From contig NZ_CAJCKW010000004.1 in assembly GCF_903970965.1 (NCBI RefSeq), forward strand, positions 124,001 to 188,000: 64,000 bases of DNA, in the 5' to 3' direction. Source of the DNA: Aureimonas sp. ME7 (lineage in GTDB: Bacteria > Pseudomonadota > Alphaproteobacteria > Rhizobiales > Rhizobiaceae). This document shows positions 1 to 10,674 of the stretch, in pieces; the stretch's first letter is position 1; every line of letters begins with the position of its first letter. The position numbers and the translations under genes were made by a program. The notes beneath the pieces are model-generated. The model did no database searches. It was not told the DNA's origin and saw only the letters and a program-made list of their open reading frames with translations.

Positions 1-215
1 CTGGCGACAACGGCGCCGCTGAGCGGCGCGAACGCGGCCCAGACGCCGATGCCGACGATGAAAACGGCGACGATGGCAGAGCCGAGCACGATCGGGCGCC
101 GAAGGCCGAAGTCGAAGGCGGCGTCGTCGCTCATCGGCGGGGGTGGGAGCTTGGCCGCCTCGGGCGAGACGTTCGGGTCGAGCTCGGGCTTTTTCCTGAA
201 AGCGATCACGGACAT
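1..215 (-). CDS. Type I secretion periplasmic adaptor (HlyD/PrsE family), N-terminal fragment
   Basis: Only the first 71 residues are in the window; the gene runs off the left edge. It opens with a short cytoplasmic stretch rich in proline and charged residues, then one membrane segment at about residues 43-62 (RPIVLGSAIVAVFIVGIGVW) followed by AAFAPLSGAVVAS. That is the usual beginning of the membrane-fusion protein of type I secretion systems, which bridges an inner-membrane ABC transporter to a TolC-like channel. It begins 25 bp after the stop of the ABC transporter gene, the order seen in PrsD-PrsE and similar exporters, so the two are almost certainly co-transcribed. The diagnostic coiled-coil part is outside the window. 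Confidence 0.8.
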   Translation of the reverse strand, partial: MSVIAFRKKPELDPNVSPEAAKLPPPPMSDDAAFDFGLRRPIVLGSAIVAVFIVGIGVWAAFAPLSGAVVA

Positions 216-240: not shown

Positions 241-2019
241 TCAGGAGGAGGCCGGAAGCGCCTTGGCCTCCGGCGCCTTCGCAACGGCGGAGGGCTGCTG
301 CTGAGGCGCGGCAGCGGGGGCGGCGCCGGTGGGTGCGGGGGCGACGACGCGGGCGAGGACTTCGTCGCGCGGGCCGAAGCGCTCCACCATGCCGTCGCGC
401 AGAAGGAGGATCTTGTTGGAATAGTTCAGCGCCGACATCCGGTGCGAGATGACGACGACCGTGGAGCCGATGCGGCGTAGCGCAACAATGGCGGCCAGAA
501 GCGCCTGCTCGCCTTCGGAATCGAGCGAGGCGTTGGGCTCGTCGAGGACGACGAAGGAGGGCTTCTCGTAGACCGCGCGGGCGAGCGCGACGCGCTGGCG
601 CTGCCCGACCGACAGCATGGCGCCGCCTTCGCCGAGTTCGGTGTCGTAGCCTTCCGGCAGGCGCAGGATCAGGTCGTGGACGCCGGCCATCTTGGCGGCT
701 TCCAGCACGGCCTCGTCGTTGGTGTCGGGCGCGAAGCGGGCGATGTTCTCGCGCACCGTGCCGGAGAAGAGTTCGACGTCCTGCGGGAGGTAGCCGATGT
801 GGCGGCCGATGTTGGAGCGCGACCAGGAATGCATCTCCGCGCCATCGAGGCGCACGGAGCCGGAGGAGGGGCGCGCGACACCGATCAGGAGGCGGGCGAG
901 CGAGGACTTGCCGGCGCCGGACGGGCCGATGAGGCCGAGGCAGTCGCCCGGCTCCAGCGCGAAGTTGAGGTTCTTGAGGAGCGCCTTGTTGGTGGCGGGG
1001 AAGGCGTAGAAGCAGGCTTCCACCGACAGGCGGCCGGCCGGGCGCGGCAGGGCCATGCCGGCTTCGGGAGCCGGGAACTCCTTGAGAAGGGAGTTGAGGC
1101 GCTCGAAGGCCTGGCGCGAGGCGGTGATGGCGGACCAGGAGCCGACGGCGCGCTCGACCGGGGCAAGAGCACGCGCCATTAGCATCATCGAGGCGAACAT
1201 GACGCCGGGGCCGGTCAGGCCTTCGATGACGAGGACGGCGCCGCCGGCCAGAATCGCGACCTGGAGGAACTGGCGGGTGAAGCGGATGGTGGCCTGGATC
1301 GTGCCGCCGCGCTCGGAGGCGAGCTCCTGCGCCGAGAGCATGGCCATGCGGTCGCGGTTCCAGCGCTTCGACAGGCCGGGCAGCATGCCCATCGCGTAGA
1401 TGACTTCGGCGTTGCGCAGGCCCGAATCGGTGGCCGAGTAGGAGCGCTGGCCGGCGACGTTGGCGTCCTTGAGGGCGGGCTTCGTCAGATGCTCGTTGAA
1501 GAGGGCGAGGCCGAAGAGGACGACGGCGCCGATCAGCGACAGGAGGCCGAGGCGCCAGTCGATCGCCATGATGACGATCAGGAAGATCGGGGCCCAGGGC
1601 GCGTCGAGGACGGCGTTGGTGACGTTGCCGGCAAGGCCCTGGCGGAACGTGTCGAGATCGCGAAGCGCGGAGGAGCGGACGGGGCGGCCGGCACGAAGGC
1701 CGGCGTTGACCACCGCGTCGAGGAGGCGCGGGGCGAGGCGGCGATCGAGCATGGAGCCGATCTTGATGAGGATGCGCCCGCGCAGCTCCTCGAGTGCTGT
1801 CATCACGCCGAAGGCCATGACGACGGCGATCGTCAGATACAGAAGCGTTTCCTCGGAATGCGAGGTCACGACGCGGCTGTAGACCTGCGTCATGTAGATC
1901 GGCAGCGCGAGGTAGAGGAGGTTGGATCCGAAGGAGAAGAGCGCGGCGAAGGCCATGGGCCGGATGCCGGACTTCAGCGCGTCGCGCATTTCAGGCGCGA
2001 GATCGGAGGGCTTCTGCAT
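241..2019 (-). CDS. Type I secretion system ABC transporter/permease (PrsD/PrtD-like)
   Basis: 592 aa with an N-terminal six-helix ABC membrane domain (about residues 20-310) and a C-terminal ATPase. Walker A is GPSGAGKS at 365-372, the signature is LSVGQ at 469-473 (usual LSGGQ), Walker B is FVVLDEP near 489-495 and the H-loop His is 526. There is no C39 peptidase domain, so it belongs to the group that exports RTX proteins by a C-terminal signal. The last 35 residues are an Ala/Pro/Gln-rich tail. The start at 2019 is preferred over the ATG at 2142 because AAAGG lies just before it and the extra 41 residues do not resemble the family. The adaptor gene follows directly, and a likely substrate is encoded 1.6 kb upstream on the same strand. 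Confidence 0.9.
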   Translation of the reverse strand: MQKPSDLAPEMRDALKSGIRPMAFAALFSFGSNLLYLALPIYMTQVYSRVVTSHSEETLLYLTIAVVMAFGVMTALEELRGRILIKIGSMLDRRLAPRLLDAVVNAGLRAGRPVRSSALRDLDTFRQGLAGNVTNAVLDAPWAPIFLIVIMAIDWRLGLLSLIGAVVLFGLALFNEHLTKPALKDANVAGQRSYSATDSGLRNAEVIYAMGMLPGLSKRWNRDRMAMLSAQELASERGGTIQATIRFTRQFLQVAILAGGAVLVIEGLTGPGVMFASMMLMARALAPVERAVGSWSAITASRQAFERLNSLLKEFPAPEAGMALPRPAGRLSVEACFYAFPATNKALLKNLNFALEPGDCLGLIGPSGAGKSSLARLLIGVARPSSGSVRLDGAEMHSWSRSNIGRHIGYLPQDVELFSGTVRENIARFAPDTNDEAVLEAAKMAGVHDLILRLPEGYDTELGEGGAMLSVGQRQRVALARAVYEKPSFVVLDEPNASLDSEGEQALLAAIVALRRIGSTVVVISHRMSALNYSNKILLLRDGMVERFGPRDEVLARVVAPAPTGAAPAAAPQQQPSAVAKAPEAKALPASS

Positions 2020-2151
2020 GGATCGCCTTTGCGCACGGACGCTGCGGAACACGACGCTTCCGCGAGGAGCCCGCCCACACCAGCCAAACGCGGCTTCTTG
2101 AAGGCGAAAGGCGGCCCTGCGCACAAGCGACGGGGCGACCATATAGACAAA

Positions 2152-2713: not shown

Positions 2714-3589
2714 TCAGCGTGACGACAGGAGGCGTCGCAGCCAGGGCTGTTTGACGGCTGAGGGAGACGTGCCCTGGTTCGGCTGGCGCTCGACGGGCTT
2801 TCCCTTGAAGCGGATCAGGAGCGGGACCGTCGTGGTCATCGGATGCATGATGCCGTGCTCCCACAGACCGTCTTCGCCCCAGCAGTCGCCGTGGTCGCCG
2901 CAGATGATGATCGTGCCGTCCATGTGGCGCTCGATCAGGGGGGCGAGGAGGCGGTCGGCGAACTCGAGGCAGGCGGTCTGGCGCGAGCGGCATTCGGAGG
3001 AGCGGTCTACCGTCTGGAAGGGGTGGCAGGGGTTGTCGTCCGCCGACCAGGGAGCGCCTTCGTGCCAGTAGGGGACGTGGGTTTCGCCGACATTGACGAA
3101 GGTGAAGGTGTTGCCCTCCGCTTCAGCCAAGCGCTCGTTCACCCACGCCATCTGGTTTCCCAGGTAGTAGGCGCCGGCATAGAAGAAGTGTTCGAAGCTG
3201 TCGCTGAGATGGCCGCCGGTGACGGTGGCGGGATCGAACCAGCCCATGGCGGCGGTGCCGATCGTGGTGTAGCCGAGACGTCGGAAGCCGTCGACGATGT
3301 TGCGGCCGACGAGTTCGTAGCCTTCCGTGCCCTTGCCGGGATGACCGGCACCCACGATCTTGAAGAGCTTGCCGAACTTCGGATCGAGGAGAGGCTGGGC
3401 AGCGCCGGAGATGCCGGGCGTGAAGCCGACGAACATCGCGGAATGGGAGCCGTAGGTGAAGTAGCTCGGCGACTGGGCCTTATGCAGCGGCGCCACGGCC
3501 TTGATGTTCGGCGCGGCGCCGGCCGCGAACGTGTCGTAGCGGCAGGAGTCCAGGGTAACGAAGAGGACGTGATCCGAGGCGTCTGACAT
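2714..3589 (-). CDS. Sulfatase-fold (alkaline phosphatase superfamily) protein without the formylglycine motif
   Basis: 291 aa, cytoplasmic by sequence (no signal peptide). The start is MSDASDHVLFVTLDSCRYDT with a metal-ligand-like Asp14; the C-terminal metal motif is GDHGD at 231-235 with His249 downstream, and NVGETHVPY is at 166-174. Where a true sulfatase has Cys/Ser-x-Pro-x-Arg, this has SPSYFTYGSHSAM (40-52), so formylglycine activation is not expected. It may act on a phospho- or sulfo-ester using another nucleophile, or have a different role. The start at 3589 follows GGAG; an in-frame start at 3640 would lie in the terminator of the RTX gene. Its place between the RTX protein and its exporter suggests a role in the same surface system. 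Confidence 0.75.
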   Translation of the reverse strand: MSDASDHVLFVTLDSCRYDTFAAGAAPNIKAVAPLHKAQSPSYFTYGSHSAMFVGFTPGISGAAQPLLDPKFGKLFKIVGAGHPGKGTEGYELVGRNIVDGFRRLGYTTIGTAAMGWFDPATVTGGHLSDSFEHFFYAGAYYLGNQMAWVNERLAEAEGNTFTFVNVGETHVPYWHEGAPWSADDNPCHPFQTVDRSSECRSRQTACLEFADRLLAPLIERHMDGTIIICGDHGDCWGEDGLWEHGIMHPMTTTVPLLIRFKGKPVERQPNQGTSPSAVKQPWLRRLLSSR

Positions 3590-3668: not shown

Positions 3669-5279
3669 TTAAGCGACCGAGAACGAGTCAGCCGAGATCG
3701 TGCCGGTGAAGCCGGTGACCTCAACGACCTGATCGTCGTACACCGCGTACGTGCCAGCCAGATCGCCCGACGAAACCGTCACAAGGGTAACTGCACCAGC
3801 AGTAGCGCTGGCAGCACCCGTGATCGCCGCGAAGTCACCAGTTGCCAGGGTCGTCTGCACAACACTCGTCACAGCAGCGGCTGCATCGAACACGATCGTG
3901 TCTTCGCCGAACGTGAAGTCGGTGATGGAAACGATTTCGTCCGCAGCCGTCGTGTCAGCAGCACCTGAGAAGTCGAACGTATCATCACCAGCACCGCCGG
4001 TCAGGACGTGGTTCAGCGAGCTGTTGATGATGAGGGTATCATTGCCCTGACCACCGAAGACGGTCGCAAGACCAAGGCCATCGATGGTGATCTCGTCGTC
4101 GCCACCGTTGCCGTAGACAACAGCGGTGTCGTCAGCGGTCGTCAGCGTGACCGAGATGATATCGTCGCCGTCAGCCGCGTCCGTGGTGCCGTTGCCACCA
4201 ACAACCGTCACGGTTGCATCGGAGCCAGCGGTAGTGACAGTAAGCGTGTCACCGCCAAGACCACCAACGATCGATGCGGAGTTGCCAGTGAAGGTGATCT
4301 GATCATCATCAGCGCCGCCGAATACGGTCGCATTGCCAAGACCCGTCACAGTGATGACGTCTTCGCCAGCATTGCCGTAGATCACAGCCGAGTCACCATC
4401 AGCCGTCAGGCCAACGTTGATTACATCGGCACCGTCGAGGCGATCATTGTTGCCATTGCCGCCATAGACGGTGACAGCTGCGTCATCACCAGCGGTGGTG
4501 ACCGTGATCTCATCTTCGCCGAGTCCGCCGACGATCGACGCAGAGTTGCCGGTGAAAGCAACCGTGTCGTCACCCTGTCCGCCGAAGATCGTTGCCGAAC
4601 CCAAGCCGGTTACAGTGATCTCGTCGCTACCGCCGTTGCCGTAGATAAGGGCAGTGCCGGTGTTGGAAAGCGCAGCAGTGATGGTGTCGGCGCCGTCCGT
4701 CGGATCATTGGACTCGTTGCCGCCATAAACCGTCACATCGCCAGAATATGCGAATGCGGTCCCAACGGTGATCTCATCGAGACCGAGACCACCAACGAGT
4801 AGCGAGCTATCGTTAGCGGAGTCAGCCGCAGCGGCGAAATCGAGCGTGAGGGTATCAGCATCCTGGCCGCCGTAGAGGCGAACGTTGCTGAAGCCGGCGT
4901 TGTCGAGTTCATCGTTGCCCTGATTGCCGAACAGAACCGAACCGTCCGCCGAAGCGGCCAATTCGTCGTTGCCAGCGAGGCCGAGAACTACGTTACCCTC
5001 GAGAGAGTTGAGGCCGGCATCGTCACCAGCCGTGCCGTAGTCGAGGACGATGTCCGACTGAAGGCCAGCAATGATGTTCGAGGTTGTCAATGCCGCAAAA
5101 GTCACGCCGGTGAGCGTGAGAACCGCACCGCTCGTCGAAATGATCGAGATCGAGTTACCGCGGGCGTCTTCCGAGATCGAAGCGATGTCCGCAGCGTTGA
5201 GGTTCAGGATCACGCGGTCCTGAGCCGGATCGAAAGCAACGGTCTGGCTTTCGGTGCCATTGAAAGGATAATTAGCCAT
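3669..5279 (-). CDS. RTX-type calcium-binding secreted protein, S-layer- or adhesin-like
   Basis: 536 aa made largely of glycine/aspartate-rich beta-roll repeats such as GGQGDDT, GGADDDQ, GGQGNDT and GGAGDDT, which bind calcium outside the cell. Residues 1-120 form a non-repeat domain, 162-425 hold three 88-residue modules, and the C-terminus ends in DSFSVA, like the hydrophobic tail used as a type I secretion signal. There is no signal peptide. The protein contains no Lys, Cys or Trp, only four Arg and one His, and is very acidic. The start at 5279 follows AGGAG at 5-bp spacing. The ABC transporter and adaptor nearby are the likely exporter. An S-layer-like or matrix protein is the best guess; a hydrolytic domain is not visible. 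Confidence 0.85.
   Translation of the reverse strand: MANYPFNGTESQTVAFDPAQDRVILNLNAADIASISEDARGNSISIISTSGAVLTLTGVTFAALTTSNIIAGLQSDIVLDYGTAGDDAGLNSLEGNVVLGLAGNDELAASADGSVLFGNQGNDELDNAGFSNVRLYGGQDADTLTLDFAAAADSANDSSLLVGGLGLDEITVGTAFAYSGDVTVYGGNESNDPTDGADTITAALSNTGTALIYGNGGSDEITVTGLGSATIFGGQGDDTVAFTGNSASIVGGLGEDEITVTTAGDDAAVTVYGGNGNNDRLDGADVINVGLTADGDSAVIYGNAGEDVITVTGLGNATVFGGADDDQITFTGNSASIVGGLGGDTLTVTTAGSDATVTVVGGNGTTDAADGDDIISVTLTTADDTAVVYGNGGDDEITIDGLGLATVFGGQGNDTLIINSSLNHVLTGGAGDDTFDFSGAADTTAADEIVSITDFTFGEDTIVFDAAAAVTSVVQTTLATGDFAAITGAASATAGAVTLVTVSSGDLAGTYAVYDDQVVEVTGFTGTISADSFSVA
4005..4796 (-). repeat. Three tandem 264-bp modules within the RTX gene
   Basis: The anchor VGGLG recurs at residues 162, 250 and 338, exactly 88 residues apart. 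Each module carries four landmarks in the same order: VGGLG, VxGGNxxxD, YGNxGxD and FGGxxxD. At DNA level the copies differ mainly at third codon positions, so the duplication is not recent and the protein sequence has been conserved. Confidence 0.85.
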
Positions 5280-6047: not shown

Positions 6048-8582
6048 TTGAACTCATCCTCCAGCCGTCCCGCGACGCCTCTCGGCCTGCTCGTTTTTGG
6101 AATGCATCGAAGCGGGACGTCCGCCCTCACCGGAGTGCTGGAGCGGCTGGGAATTCCCGTATCGGGCGAGCTGCTGCCGGCCGAAGAGTATAATGAGAAG
6201 GGAATTTATGAAAACCGCGCGGTGAACGCGTTCCACGGCGAGCTCCTGGCCCATCTCGGATCGAGCTGGGACGACCCGATGCCGGTTTCCAACGCGTTCG
6301 TCGAAACGCCAGCGGGGGAGGGGTTCGTCCGGCGACTGGCGGCGATCATCGACGGTGAACTCTTCGCGGGTGCGCCGATCTTCGCGGTGAAGGACCCGCG
6401 CATGTCGCGCTTCGTGCCGCTGTGGCGCGCGGCGATGAAGGCCGTCGGCGCCGAGCCGAAGGCGCTCCTGCCGCTGCGTCATCCGCTCGACGTGGCGGCC
6501 TCGCTCGGCCGGCGGGACGGATTTCCCCGGGCGAAAAGCCTTCTCCTCTGGCTCGACCATACGTTGGCGGCGGAGGCGGAGACGCGAGACATGACCCGCG
6601 CGGTTCTGTCCTACGACGATCTCCTGGCTGATTGGCGCGGCGTCATGGACAAGGTCGGGCGCGAGCTCGACCTGACCTGGCCGAAGGAAAGGGCGCGCGC
6701 CGAAGCGGACATCGACGCATTCCTCAGCCGAGACCTTCGTCATCATGCCGAGCGCGGCGAGATCGGCAGCGGGACGCGGCTGGACGCGCTGACGACACAA
6801 GCGTGGTCCGCCCTGATGCAACTCGCGGCCGGCGACGCCCCGTCTGCAAGGGCGGCGCTGGACGCGGTTCGCGACGAGGTGGCCGCGGCGTCCTCTCTTC
6901 TTTCACCTTACGTGGCCTGGGAGTTCCGCGCGCTCGAGGCGAAGACGAAGGAGGCCCGCGATCTCGACTTCCATTTGCGGGCGCGGGAGAACGAGCTGGC
7001 TGCAGCGGTGGCGACGGGTCGCGGCGAGTTGCGCGCCGCCCAGGCCGAGCACGCGCGCGAACATGCCCGCATGCGGAGCGAACTCGCGCTCGCCAGTGCC
7101 GAAAACGATCGGCTGAAGCTGTTTCCCGAGCAGCTGCGCGACGCCGAGTTCCAGATCAGCAGTCTGCGGCAGGACATCCTCCAGCGTGAGGCAGCGCTGG
7201 ACGCGCTGACGAACTCGACGTCGTGGCGCGCCCTGCAGCCGATGCGAAGAATGGCACAGGCACTTCCGCCCGAAAGCCGCGCAGCCCTACGCGCCCTGGC
7301 GCGCGGCGGCTGGCAGCTGATCACGCCTTGGCGGGCGGGAGCCCGGCGCGAGGTGGCGCGCACGCGACTGGCGATGCAGGCCGGGCTGCCGATGCATCCC
7401 GTAGACCATTCGCTGCATGCGTCCGCCACGGAAGGGGGTGCTGCCTGGCGGCCTCATCTCGGGCAGCCGCCGCTGAGTGTCTTCGAAGCGCCGGCCGATC
7501 GTCCTCGCGTCTCGATGGTCACCGACAGCATCAACGAGGGAAGCCTGTTCGGAGGCGTGGCGACCGCGCTGATCTTCTCGGCCCTGTTCGCTCAGCGGAC
7601 CGGGCGCAAGCTGCGCATCGTCACCCGCACTCAACCCCCGGCGGCCGAGAACGTCGCGGCGTTGTTTCGCGCGCAAGGCATCCAATACGACGACAATATC
7701 GACTTCGCCTTCGCCGACATCGCCTCGGCGGATGCGCAGATCGACATCTCGGCGGACGAGCTTTTCATTACGACGAGCTGGTGGACGACACGCGCCACGC
7801 TTCAGTCGATCGCCGAGGAGAAGGTGATCTACCTCCTCCAGGAAGACGAGCGCATGTTCTATCCATTTGGCGACGAAGCGCTTCTGAGCGCGGAAACGAT
7901 GGGTCGGAAGAGGGTTCGCAAAGTCATCAACTCCGAACTCCTGCACCGACATCTGGTGGCGGACGGCATCATCGATGCCGACACGCCCTTTTTCGAGCCA
8001 GCGTTCCCCGATCGAATCTATTTTCCGAACCGACAGGCGAAATCCAAAAAGGTCTTCTTCTTCTACGCGCGGCCCAACAATTCGAGAAACCTGTATGCTC
8101 GGGGCCTTGAGGTCATCGAGAAGGCGATCGTTCAGGGCATTCTCAGCCCCGACGAGTGGGACATCGTGTTCGTCGGCAAGGATCTCCAACCGCTGAGCAT
8201 CGCCGGCGTCCGGCCGATCATCAGGCAGGGCATGGCGTGGGAGGAATATGCCGAGTTCACTCGTTCCGTGGATCTCGGTCTGACGCTGATGTATACGCCC
8301 CACCCCAGCTATCCCCCGCTCGACATCGCCGCTTGCGGAGGGGTTGCCGTCACCAACACGTTCGGAGTGAAGACGGATCTGGCGCAATACAGCCGTTCCA
8401 TCCTGTGCGTCGAGGGCGAAGTGGACGCTCTGGTCGAGGGATTGCGCGATGGCGTGGCGCTGGCCGCCGATCTGTCGAAACGCGATCAGAACCTATCCGA
8501 AAGCGGTTTGAAGCGCGACTGGAACGATACGCTCACCGCGTCCATCGAGCATTTGGCGCAGGTCGATTCCATTGTTCATTGA
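6048..8582 (+). CDS. Sulfotransferase / coiled-coil / WsaF-like glycosyltransferase fusion
   Basis: 844 aa with three parts. Residues 10-280 are a sulfotransferase-like domain with the PAPS 5'-phosphate loop GMHRSGTS (18-25) and a second motif in LRHPLDVAASLGRRD. Residues about 298-390 are an Ala/Glu/Arg-rich coiled coil ending in ALDALTNSTSWR, a tail often seen in O-antigen proteins. From about 487 to the end is a rhamnosyltransferase-like domain of the WsaF type (SMVTDSINEGSLFGGV; later HPSYPPLDIAACGGVAVTN). It probably modifies and extends a surface glycan. The start is TTG at 6048 with a weak GAAGAAG box; no ATG lies near the domain start. It overlaps the next gene by 11 bp, implying coupled translation. 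Confidence 0.8.
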   Translation: MNSSSSRPATPLGLLVFGMHRSGTSALTGVLERLGIPVSGELLPAEEYNEKGIYENRAVNAFHGELLAHLGSSWDDPMPVSNAFVETPAGEGFVRRLAAIIDGELFAGAPIFAVKDPRMSRFVPLWRAAMKAVGAEPKALLPLRHPLDVAASLGRRDGFPRAKSLLLWLDHTLAAEAETRDMTRAVLSYDDLLADWRGVMDKVGRELDLTWPKERARAEADIDAFLSRDLRHHAERGEIGSGTRLDALTTQAWSALMQLAAGDAPSARAALDAVRDEVAAASSLLSPYVAWEFRALEAKTKEARDLDFHLRARENELAAAVATGRGELRAAQAEHAREHARMRSELALASAENDRLKLFPEQLRDAEFQISSLRQDILQREAALDALTNSTSWRALQPMRRMAQALPPESRAALRALARGGWQLITPWRAGARREVARTRLAMQAGLPMHPVDHSLHASATEGGAAWRPHLGQPPLSVFEAPADRPRVSMVTDSINEGSLFGGVATALIFSALFAQRTGRKLRIVTRTQPPAAENVAALFRAQGIQYDDNIDFAFADIASADAQIDISADELFITTSWWTTRATLQSIAEEKVIYLLQEDERMFYPFGDEALLSAETMGRKRVRKVINSELLHRHLVADGIIDADTPFFEPAFPDRIYFPNRQAKSKKVFFFYARPNNSRNLYARGLEVIEKAIVQGILSPDEWDIVFVGKDLQPLSIAGVRPIIRQGMAWEEYAEFTRSVDLGLTLMYTPHPSYPPLDIAACGGVAVTNTFGVKTDLAQYSRSILCVEGEVDALVEGLRDGVALAADLSKRDQNLSESGLKRDWNDTLTASIEHLAQVDSIVH

Positions 8583-9933: not shown

Positions 9934-10674
9934 ATGATCGCTGCTAGCACGCTAAGAGGGCGAGCCCAGAGGCTTCATGGATCCATCGCGCAGGATATCG
10001 GGACGGCGATCCTCACCGGGACTTATCGACCCGGTGATCTTCTGGCCAACGAGGTTTCGTTCAGCGAGAAGCTGAGCGTTTCACGGACGGCCTATCGGGA
10101 GGCTGTGCGAATCCTCGCTGCGAAGGGGCTGGTCAGCAGCCGGCCGAAGGCGGGGACGCGGATCAACCCGAGAGCCAACTGGAACTTCCTCGATCCCGAA
10201 GTGCTGCGCTGGGTGTTCGAGAACGGTCCCCCGCCGCCCGCCTTCGTGCGCGATCTGTTCGAGTTGCGACAGATCGTGGAGCCTGCGGCCGCTTCCTTCG
10301 CAGCGGACCGCCGGACCGCCGCGCATCTTCTGGCAATGCGCGAGGCGCTGGACGCCATGTCGCGGCATGGTCTCGGCGTCGAAGAAGGGCGCAATGCCGA
10401 TCGACAGTTCCACGAAACCATCCTCCTGGCCACCGGCAACGAAGTTCTGGGCACACTGGCCAGCGGCATATCAGCGGCGGTGCGCTGGACGACGCTGTTC
10501 AAGGCAAGGGACGGGCGCATGCCGCGCGATCCCGTGCCCGAGCACGCAAGGGTTCTGACGGCCATCGAGGACGGGAACGCCGTCGCCGCGCGCTCGGCCA
10601 TGGCCATGCTCGTCGAACTCGCCTTTAACGACATCCGCTCGGTGGACCCGAGACTTGTGGACGTCGCGGTTTGA
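9934..10674 (+). CDS. FadR-family (GntR) transcriptional regulator
   Basis: 246 aa. The N-terminal winged helix-turn-helix is about residues 5-75 (SVSRTAYREAVRILAAKGLV, then a KAGTRI wing), followed by an FCD ligand-binding domain from about residue 95 with conserved acidic and His positions (FELRQIVEP, DRQFHETILLATGN, PEHARVLTAIEDGN). Members of this subgroup respond to sugar acids or similar metabolites. The start at 9934 follows GGAGG; the ATG-like start at 9886 lacks a box. No catabolic genes adjoin it, so the target is unknown. Confidence 0.85.
   Translation: MIAASTLRGRAQRLHGSIAQDIGTAILTGTYRPGDLLANEVSFSEKLSVSRTAYREAVRILAAKGLVSSRPKAGTRINPRANWNFLDPEVLRWVFENGPPPPAFVRDLFELRQIVEPAAASFAADRRTAAHLLAMREALDAMSRHGLGVEEGRNADRQFHETILLATGNEVLGTLASGISAAVRWTTLFKARDGRMPRDPVPEHARVLTAIEDGNAVAARSAMAMLVELAFNDIRSVDPRLVDVAV

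Follow-up and report, generated by a model that had tools for sequence, protein, structure and literature searches.

Why should a bacterium join a sulfotransferase-like domain to a rhamnosyltransferase through a long coiled coil? The question is raised by a gene of Aureimonas sp. ME7 that lies in a window of 64,000 nucleotides, the whole stretch of DNA analysed here (contig NZ_CAJCKW010000004.1, positions 124,001 to 188,000 of the forward strand). A sequence-only reading of the gene had described a three-part fusion with a coiled coil of about 90 residues, and had proposed either coupled sugar addition and sulfation or chain-length control of the WbdD type. Our analysis confirmed the three-part fusion of sulfotransferase, coiled coil and WsaF-like rhamnosyltransferase. 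We favour, with moderate confidence, the reading that it is a bifunctional protein, a subunit of a rhamnan polymerase and at the same time a chain terminator of the WbdD type, which would cap its product with sulfate. The parts of the gene and its partner are given below in window coordinates.

6048 to 8582, plus strand: whole fusion gene, 844 amino acids (open reading frame (ORF), Pfam, phmmer, full-length model)
6048 to 6833, plus strand: predicted sulfotransferase-fold domain, residues ~1-262 (AlphaFold, Foldseek, VIA-align)
6099 to 6125, plus strand: putative 5'-phosphosulfate-binding loop GMHRSGTSA, residues 18-26 (G18 and R21-S25 invariant in 13 aligned sequences)
6477 to 6503, plus strand: putative 3'-phosphate site R144-x7-S152 (both residues invariant in the same 13 sequences)
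6915 to 7211, plus strand: apparent coiled coil, residues 290-388 (model helices, heptad shuffles)
7215 to 7379, plus strand: STSWRALQPMR motif and two basic helices (408-425 and 427-444), possibly a membrane-proximal part (full-length model, heptad analysis)
7479 to 8567, plus strand: WsaF-like GT-B rhamnosyltransferase domain, residues 478-840 (Pfam, phmmer, model, structure match)
8298 to 8324, plus strand: PHPSYPPLD, residues 751-759, counterpart of PHPSYPPLE in WsaF (2x0d alignment; PMC3898925)
8572 to 9747, plus strand: partner GT4-type glycosyltransferase GT391, whose start overlaps the 3' end of the fusion gene

The ORF begins with TTG and holds no internal stops. In order to identify its C-terminal part we compared it with Pfam, and found WsaF_C (1.7e-40, 138.4 bits) and WsaF_N (5.4e-12, 46.5 bits; cut-offs 27). 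A phmmer search of the PDB returned the WsaF structure 2x0d (8.6e-33), and the best structural match of the GT-B domain model was WsaF with deoxythymidine diphosphate (dTDP)-rhamnose. As the 2x0d alignment showed, WsaF Y247, R249, R254, H326 and Y329, which were mutated in the WsaF study (PMC3898925), are identical at Y673, R675, R680, H752 and Y755 of the fusion, and the motif PHPSYPPLE is kept apart from its last position, where E is replaced by D. Genome contigs yielded 111 relatives, of which the best 80 loci were kept; in 79 of these a GT391 homologue followed WsaF, at 0-400 nucleotides in 74 cases and overlapping it by a few bases in five. The sole exception, L086 (8001-10608, plus strand), has tandem WsaF-like matches. 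The ME7 genome contains rmlBACD; all four rml genes were present in 15 of the 80 loci and at least one in 23. In a phylum sample of 398 genomes, three, ME7 included, had WsaF at E <=1e-30, which is too few for statistics. Some GC-rich loci (e.g. L022, L128) were miscalled antisense by the gene caller, and tblastn and stop-to-stop frames were used there.

For the N-terminal part, an AlphaFold model of residues 1-300 built from 13 sequences reached a predicted local distance difference test score of 85.9 and a predicted template modelling score of 0.85. All 15 Foldseek matches of this model at E <=0.001 were sulfotransferases (best E 8.8e-6). In VIA-align the top match was 5wri (Z 15.8, 216 residues, root-mean-square deviation 3.9), and rows 1-28 of 50 were sulfotransferases, among which we count the Teg rows; the first adenylate kinase came at row 29 (Z 10.4), and sulfotransferases recur among the rows beneath it. 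Across 13 aligned sequences, that of the window included, G18, R21-S25, G35, E55, L67, K115-R118, W126, R144, S152 and L192 were invariant. These residues cover GMHRSGTSA and R-x7-S, which we take to be the 5'-phosphosulfate loop and the 3'-phosphate motif, respectively. The 3'-phosphate site, on whose presence the sequence-only reading had staked its assignment, is thus found and is invariant. A P-loop enzyme other than a sulfotransferase is unlikely, since the invariant motifs for 3'-phosphoadenosine 5'-phosphosulfate (PAPS) and the structure ranking rule against it. We predict from model and alignment that residues 1-300 form a PAPS-type sulfotransferase fold with both PAPS-site motifs.

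In the full-length model, helices at 264-338 and 346-388 are followed by two short helices up to residue 444, a low-confidence linker and the GT-B fold from ~478. A heptad pattern in one register over residues 290-388 was matched by one of 2000 shuffles. For sub-ranges, the observed pattern was reached by 183 of 2000 shuffles (290-345), 37 (346-395) and 969 of 2000 (264-338). Residues 290-388 therefore look like a coiled coil by model and heptad pattern, in agreement with the length of about 90 residues named at the outset; with the ORF, the WsaF matches in Pfam and PDB, the sulfotransferase-fold model and these central helices, the proposed three-part architecture is borne out. Among 22 sulfotransferase proteins, a crude heptad test gave at most 10 of 200 shuffles reaching the observed pattern in 15. 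Domain order and model helices place the modifying enzyme distal to the polymerase across the coiled coil, as in the WbdD type. In L145 (5960-7114, minus strand) a direct repeat of 14 residues, two copies of it exact, occurs three times in the coiled-coil region, which would possibly fit a variation of ruler length through repeat number.

We then found the same fusion in other genomes. In a kinship sample of 61 genomes, ME7 included, 16 matched at E <=0.001. The genus set comprised 21 genomes, again with ME7 (G008, G009, G011 and G020 are the same as L022, L025, L023 and L033, and each pair was counted once); 11 carried the sulfotransferase module, fused to WsaF in five and in longer open frames of 1334-1421 codons in six. 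The sulfotransferase-WsaF fusion is present in six Aureimonas genomes (the five of the genus set, ME7 included, plus L024), one Chromatiaceae and one Chamaesiphon. This recurrence excludes an assembly error or a fusion unique to the strain, the doubt that the sequence-only reading had itself raised. Behind the head of the longer frames, Pfam found GT4-type and rhamnan synthesis protein F (RgpF) domains in three of six, the three scanned, and the RgpF part of one long frame matched the other five at 48-49% in tblastn. In a sulfotransferase tree of 22 rows, which contained the six WsaF-type and three of the six RgpF-type Aureimonas proteins, both types formed one clade (support 95/93), so that in Aureimonas the head was probably kept while the polymerase half was exchanged, WsaF versus GT4-RgpF.

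What stands in the position of the head in other WsaF loci? More than 150 residues precede WsaF in 36 of the 80 loci, which together with the window gives 37 long proteins. Pfam assigned a methyltransferase to the N-terminal part of 17 of these, through Methyltransf_24 in 12 proteins and through other models of the kind in L027, L067, L072, L083 and L100. Eight have the fusion-type sulfotransferase there, one has PIG-L with GT2, and 11 have neither enzyme; L031, one of the 11, matches a methyltransferase seed by tblastn. Sulfotransfer_3 was detected at E 0.01 in only two of the 37, and the remaining sulfotransferases were assigned by a profile built in this analysis. This profile found a sulfotransferase in 12 of the 80 loci: five named Aureimonas, L026, L062 and five loci (L042, L047, L055, L076, L081) in which it is encoded on its own, by a gene that follows wzt and immediately precedes wsaF. 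In L062 (Chamaesiphon) the order is wzm-wzt-APS kinase-fusion-GT391, where APS is adenosine 5'-phosphosulfate. ME7 itself encodes an APS kinase in fusion with a CysN part; in the frame scanned, the APS kinase models were over the cut-off and the bifunctional CysNC model was below it.

Outside Aureimonas, we observed a relationship between the sulfotransferase and the Wzt exporter. The C-terminal part of the L042 Wzt gave seven tblastn matches in the 80 loci, exactly the seven sulfotransferase loci outside Aureimonas, L042 included, and all seven have long Wzts. The same region gave nine matches in the 398 phylum genomes, and six of the nine clusters were positive with the sulfotransferase profile. 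In these six the sulfotransferase lies at most 5.5 kb from the Wzt match, adjoining wzt in L142-L144, one gene off in L145 and 3-5 kb off in L147 and L148. As a control we took the 40 best-ranked other Wzt_C places, some of which are cut at contig ends and a few genomes contributing two or three; one of them (L211, at the edge) was positive. The difference, 6/9 versus 1/40, gave a Fisher p of 4e-5, uncorrected for kinship. Directly downstream of wzt in L150 (9133-10638, plus strand), a 502-amino-acid ORF has an RSGST P-loop-like motif and no sulfotransferase Pfam match, and is perhaps another cap enzyme.

How might the fusion work? With dTDP-L-rhamnose as donor, the WsaF domain and GT391 would extend a chain, probably a lipid-linked one, by rhamnose units at the membrane. 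Head and polymerase would be kept a set distance apart by the coiled coil, and a chain would have to grow to a minimum length before it could reach the sulfotransferase head. The head would then transfer sulfate from PAPS to the free chain end as its acceptor, and growth would stop. The least certain step concerns Aureimonas, where a protein exported by the neighbouring type I system may be what the capped chain serves. Such a WbdD-type scheme gains support from the methyltransferases that share the slot (17 of 37), the sulfotransferase genes in wzm-wzt loci and the adjacent APS kinase gene. The cap-reading Wzt that belongs to the scheme was not found in the ME7 genome, and sulfation and ruler action are proposals; the interpretation given by the sequence-only reading is therefore only partly supported.

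Several observations weigh against sulfate capping. The window scored 14.9 bits with the Pfam model Sulfotransfer_3, against a cut-off of 27, and neither PF00685 nor PF13469 gave a match in the ME7 genome, so that these models miss the fusion gene. The L143 relative reaches 27.1 bits, and we regard the Pfam score as a detection limit and not a defining trait. The crude heptad test was weak in seven of the 22 proteins (L022, L023, L024, L025, L108, L111, L145), six of them from Aureimonas. Three of the nine clusters with an L042-type Wzt had no sulfotransferase by profile (L146, L149, which is at a contig end, and L150). Trees were made by a quick method from the 67 Wzts, out of 87 found, whose C-terminal part has at least 100 residues. 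In them the sulfotransferase label changed four times on the C-terminal half and five times on the ATPase half (shuffled mean ~12.9; as few in 0 of 500 shuffles for either half). Cap-type-specific evolution of the C-terminal half, although striking in pairwise comparison, was therefore rejected: the ATPase-half tree clusters about equally, which points to co-inheritance of the whole transporter only and is not proof of cap reading. The ME7 genome gave no Wzt_C match, and its single ABC2-type exporter match, beside rmlBACD, pairs with a 250-amino-acid Wzt that lacks Wzt_C. Thus the search turned up no counterpart there for a key member of the WbdD scheme, and the cap would be read otherwise, perhaps by the secreted protein, or export would be cap-independent. 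The literature examined contained no experiment that shows sulfate on such a glycan, and no sulfate was found in the O-antigen of Aeromonas salmonicida despite a sulfotransferase-domain gene (PMC4483657).

Other explanations for the head have to be set beside capping. The sulfotransferase could decorate rhamnoses along the chain, with the coiled coil as a mere tether giving reach, and the fusion would be accounted for equally well. Sulfated L-rhamnose occurs in the repeat of the Vibrio sp. KMM 8419 capsule, whose cluster contains sulfotransferase genes (PMC11641403), and a search for a cap-reading Wzt in the ME7 genome that found none agrees with this. We nevertheless think repeat-unit sulfation unlikely, for the slot holds methyltransferases in 17 of 37 proteins, coiled-coil methyltransferases are known terminators (PMC11231755), and outside Aureimonas the sulfotransferase genes accompany long Wzts. 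More improbable still is that the head acts on the secreted protein, for instance on a tyrosine, and not on the glycan. This would suit the top structural matches, which are tyrosylprotein sulfotransferases, and a locus with genes for type I secretion and an RTX-like protein; in Xanthomonas, the Rax system reportedly pairs a type I-like exporter with a tyrosine sulfotransferase. Yet a structural rank at ~16% identity leaves the acceptor undefined, and members of the family outside Aureimonas are found in glycan-export loci or fused to other glycosyltransferases. Very improbable, in our view, is a head that keeps the fold but is catalytically inactive, or transfers a different group, and serves for binding. 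The Pfam scores under the cut-off would agree with it, as would the core fold shared with P-loop kinases from Z 10.4 down, but the window and 12 relatives of 22-77% identity to it share both PAPS motifs without exception, and the L062 fusion has an APS kinase gene next to it. We thus retain sulfate capping as the favoured reading.

Does the capped chain have a partner? On the opposite strand beside the fusion lie four genes, of which those for type I secretion and the RTX-like protein had no place in the sequence-only account of the fusion, and an unexpected link to type I secretion was observed by gene context within this one genus.

1 to 215, minus strand: HlyD-family adaptor, N-terminal part, the remainder being upstream of the window (L110 relative matches TIGR01843 over the cut-off, 336.3 bits)
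241 to 2142, minus strand: PrtD-type type I secretion ATP-binding cassette (ABC) permease/ATPase (TIGR01842, 664.1 bits, cut-off 510.15)
2714 to 3589, minus strand: sulfatase-superfamily protein, 291 amino acids (PF00884, 26.9 bits, cut-off 25; NF038075, STM4013 family, 120.5 bits, under the cut-off of 250)
3669 to 5279, minus strand: RTX-like acidic repeat protein, 536 amino acids, possible type I cargo (repeats by pattern; matches in other Aureimonas)

Beyond the adaptor, past the edge of the window, follows a GT4-type enzyme (Glyco_trans_4_3). The acidic protein contains 77 D/E, 5 K/R/H and no Cys; a pattern search picked out six GGxGxDx-like repeats in it, and it has matches among the ORFs that lie close to the module in other Aureimonas. 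A Pfam scan of it gave no match, HemolysinCabind included; the RTX-like ORFs scanned from L106, L117, L118 and L119 carry HemolysinCabind, and the match in AU4 (L119, the same as L033) is an M10 peptidase with HemolysinCabind repeats. The RTX-like neighbours are therefore not one orthologue. Each of the 12 distinct Aureimonas loci (window, L022-L025, L033, L106-L111) has an RTX-like match close to the module, whichever polymerase half is present, and 11 of the 12 have the ABC gene, which in G004 (L108) is on another contig. The PrtD-type ABC protein (E <=1e-150) occurs in the same 11 of 21 genus genomes as the sulfotransferase and in none of the 10 others (Fisher p 2.8e-6, uncorrected for kinship).

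These data allow a speculative proposal, in which we place little confidence: in Aureimonas, a length-measured, sulfate-capped rhamnan would be the partner of a type I-secreted calcium-binding protein, as its covalent decoration or surface anchor, and the cap would be under selection, since the sulfotransferase-coiled-coil head was kept while WsaF and GT4-RgpF were exchanged. A more credible possibility, if still short of probable, is that the type I genes adjoin the fusion by chance and that its glycan is a lipopolysaccharide or capsule of the ordinary kind, which is compatible with sulfate capping. The ME7 genome has a separate rml-wzm-wzt locus on C2, co-occurrence within one genus can reflect the gain of a single ancestral block, and the RTX-like neighbour varies, down to the serralysin-type M10 peptidase ORF in AU4. 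An accident is harder to reconcile with the shared presence of sulfotransferase and ABC protein in 11 of 21 genomes and with RTX-like matches in 12 of 12 loci, also beside the other polymerase half.

Further observations were made around these genes. In L119 (5877-7889, plus strand) the serralysin-type M10 peptidase with RTX repeats has the type I ABC gene on one side and the fusion on the other, and is possibly the cargo of the transporter; similar ORFs occur in L117 and L024 (Pfam was run on L119). Serralysin-type M10 peptidases are the usual kind of cargo of PrtD-type systems. The sulfatase-superfamily gene adjoins the RTX-like gene, is also present in L107, L108 and L109, and may modify the same product. 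A GntR-family regulator (9934-10674, plus strand) comes after GT391 in the window, and an ORF with a similar start stands beside the RgpF-type fusion in L107, L108, L110 and L111. WsaF-containing proteins are also encoded in L151 (6539-9672, minus strand; GT2-WsaF by Pfam) and L152 (6987-10183, minus strand). Their genes adjoin ORFs of 271 and 286 amino acids, respectively, with an MHKCGSTYL motif and no Pfam match, and RTX-like ORFs are nearby; they form a second WsaF/RTX neighbourhood, in another family of the class.

Known coiled-coil terminators carry their cap enzyme on the distal end of the coil, and only chains of sufficient length get that far (PMC11231755, PMC3482155). WbdD of E. coli O9a resembles the fusion in its N-terminal modifying enzyme, coiled coil and polymerase-proximal region, and relatives of the fusion outside Aureimonas likewise lie in ABC-transporter glycan loci. 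It differs in that its cap enzyme is a kinase/methyltransferase and its polymerase is recruited, whereas the fusion has a sulfotransferase and a fused rhamnosyltransferase; the Wzt that reads the cap in the WbdD scheme was not found in ME7. WbbB of Klebsiella O12 and ORF6 of Klebsiella O7 also combine terminator, coiled coil and C-terminal glycosyltransferases in one polypeptide (PMC11231755), but their terminator is a transferase for 3-deoxy-D-manno-oct-2-ulosonic acid (Kdo) or a methyltransferase-kinase. In gene order, Aeromonas salmonicida is similar, with a sulfotransferase-domain gene between wzt and the multidomain polymerase gene wbbB (PMC4483657); there the protein is short (216 amino acids) and separate. 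WsaF of Geobacillus stearothermophilus shares the GT-B fold, several residues of the dTDP-rhamnose site and the PHPSYPPL motif, but is a 413-residue S-layer glycan enzyme without fusion partners, with E333 in place of D759. The S-layer protein RsaA of Caulobacter is exported by type I secretion, and we know of no sulfotransferase fusion in that system. RsaA offers a parallel as a surface protein held by a glycan, the lipopolysaccharide O-antigen (PMC6978808); in Aureimonas, it is gene context that points to such anchoring.

The terminators of ABC-exported glycans named in PMC11231755 add methyl, phosphomethyl or Kdo groups, and the word 'sulfotransferase' is absent from its main text. Our search of the open-licence literature found no sulfotransferase named as a coiled-coil chain terminator, and priority is thus provisional. 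If the reading is true, a sulfate cap would be a new chemistry among these terminators, would explain sulfotransferase genes of wzm-wzt loci that are without a known product, and would predict one sulfate per chain, which is easily missed by repeat-unit analysis. The type I linkage might in addition tie control of glycan length to a secreted surface protein. Collectively, the comparison favours the view that the fusion extends the known class of coiled-coil terminators, with a sulfotransferase as its putative cap enzyme.

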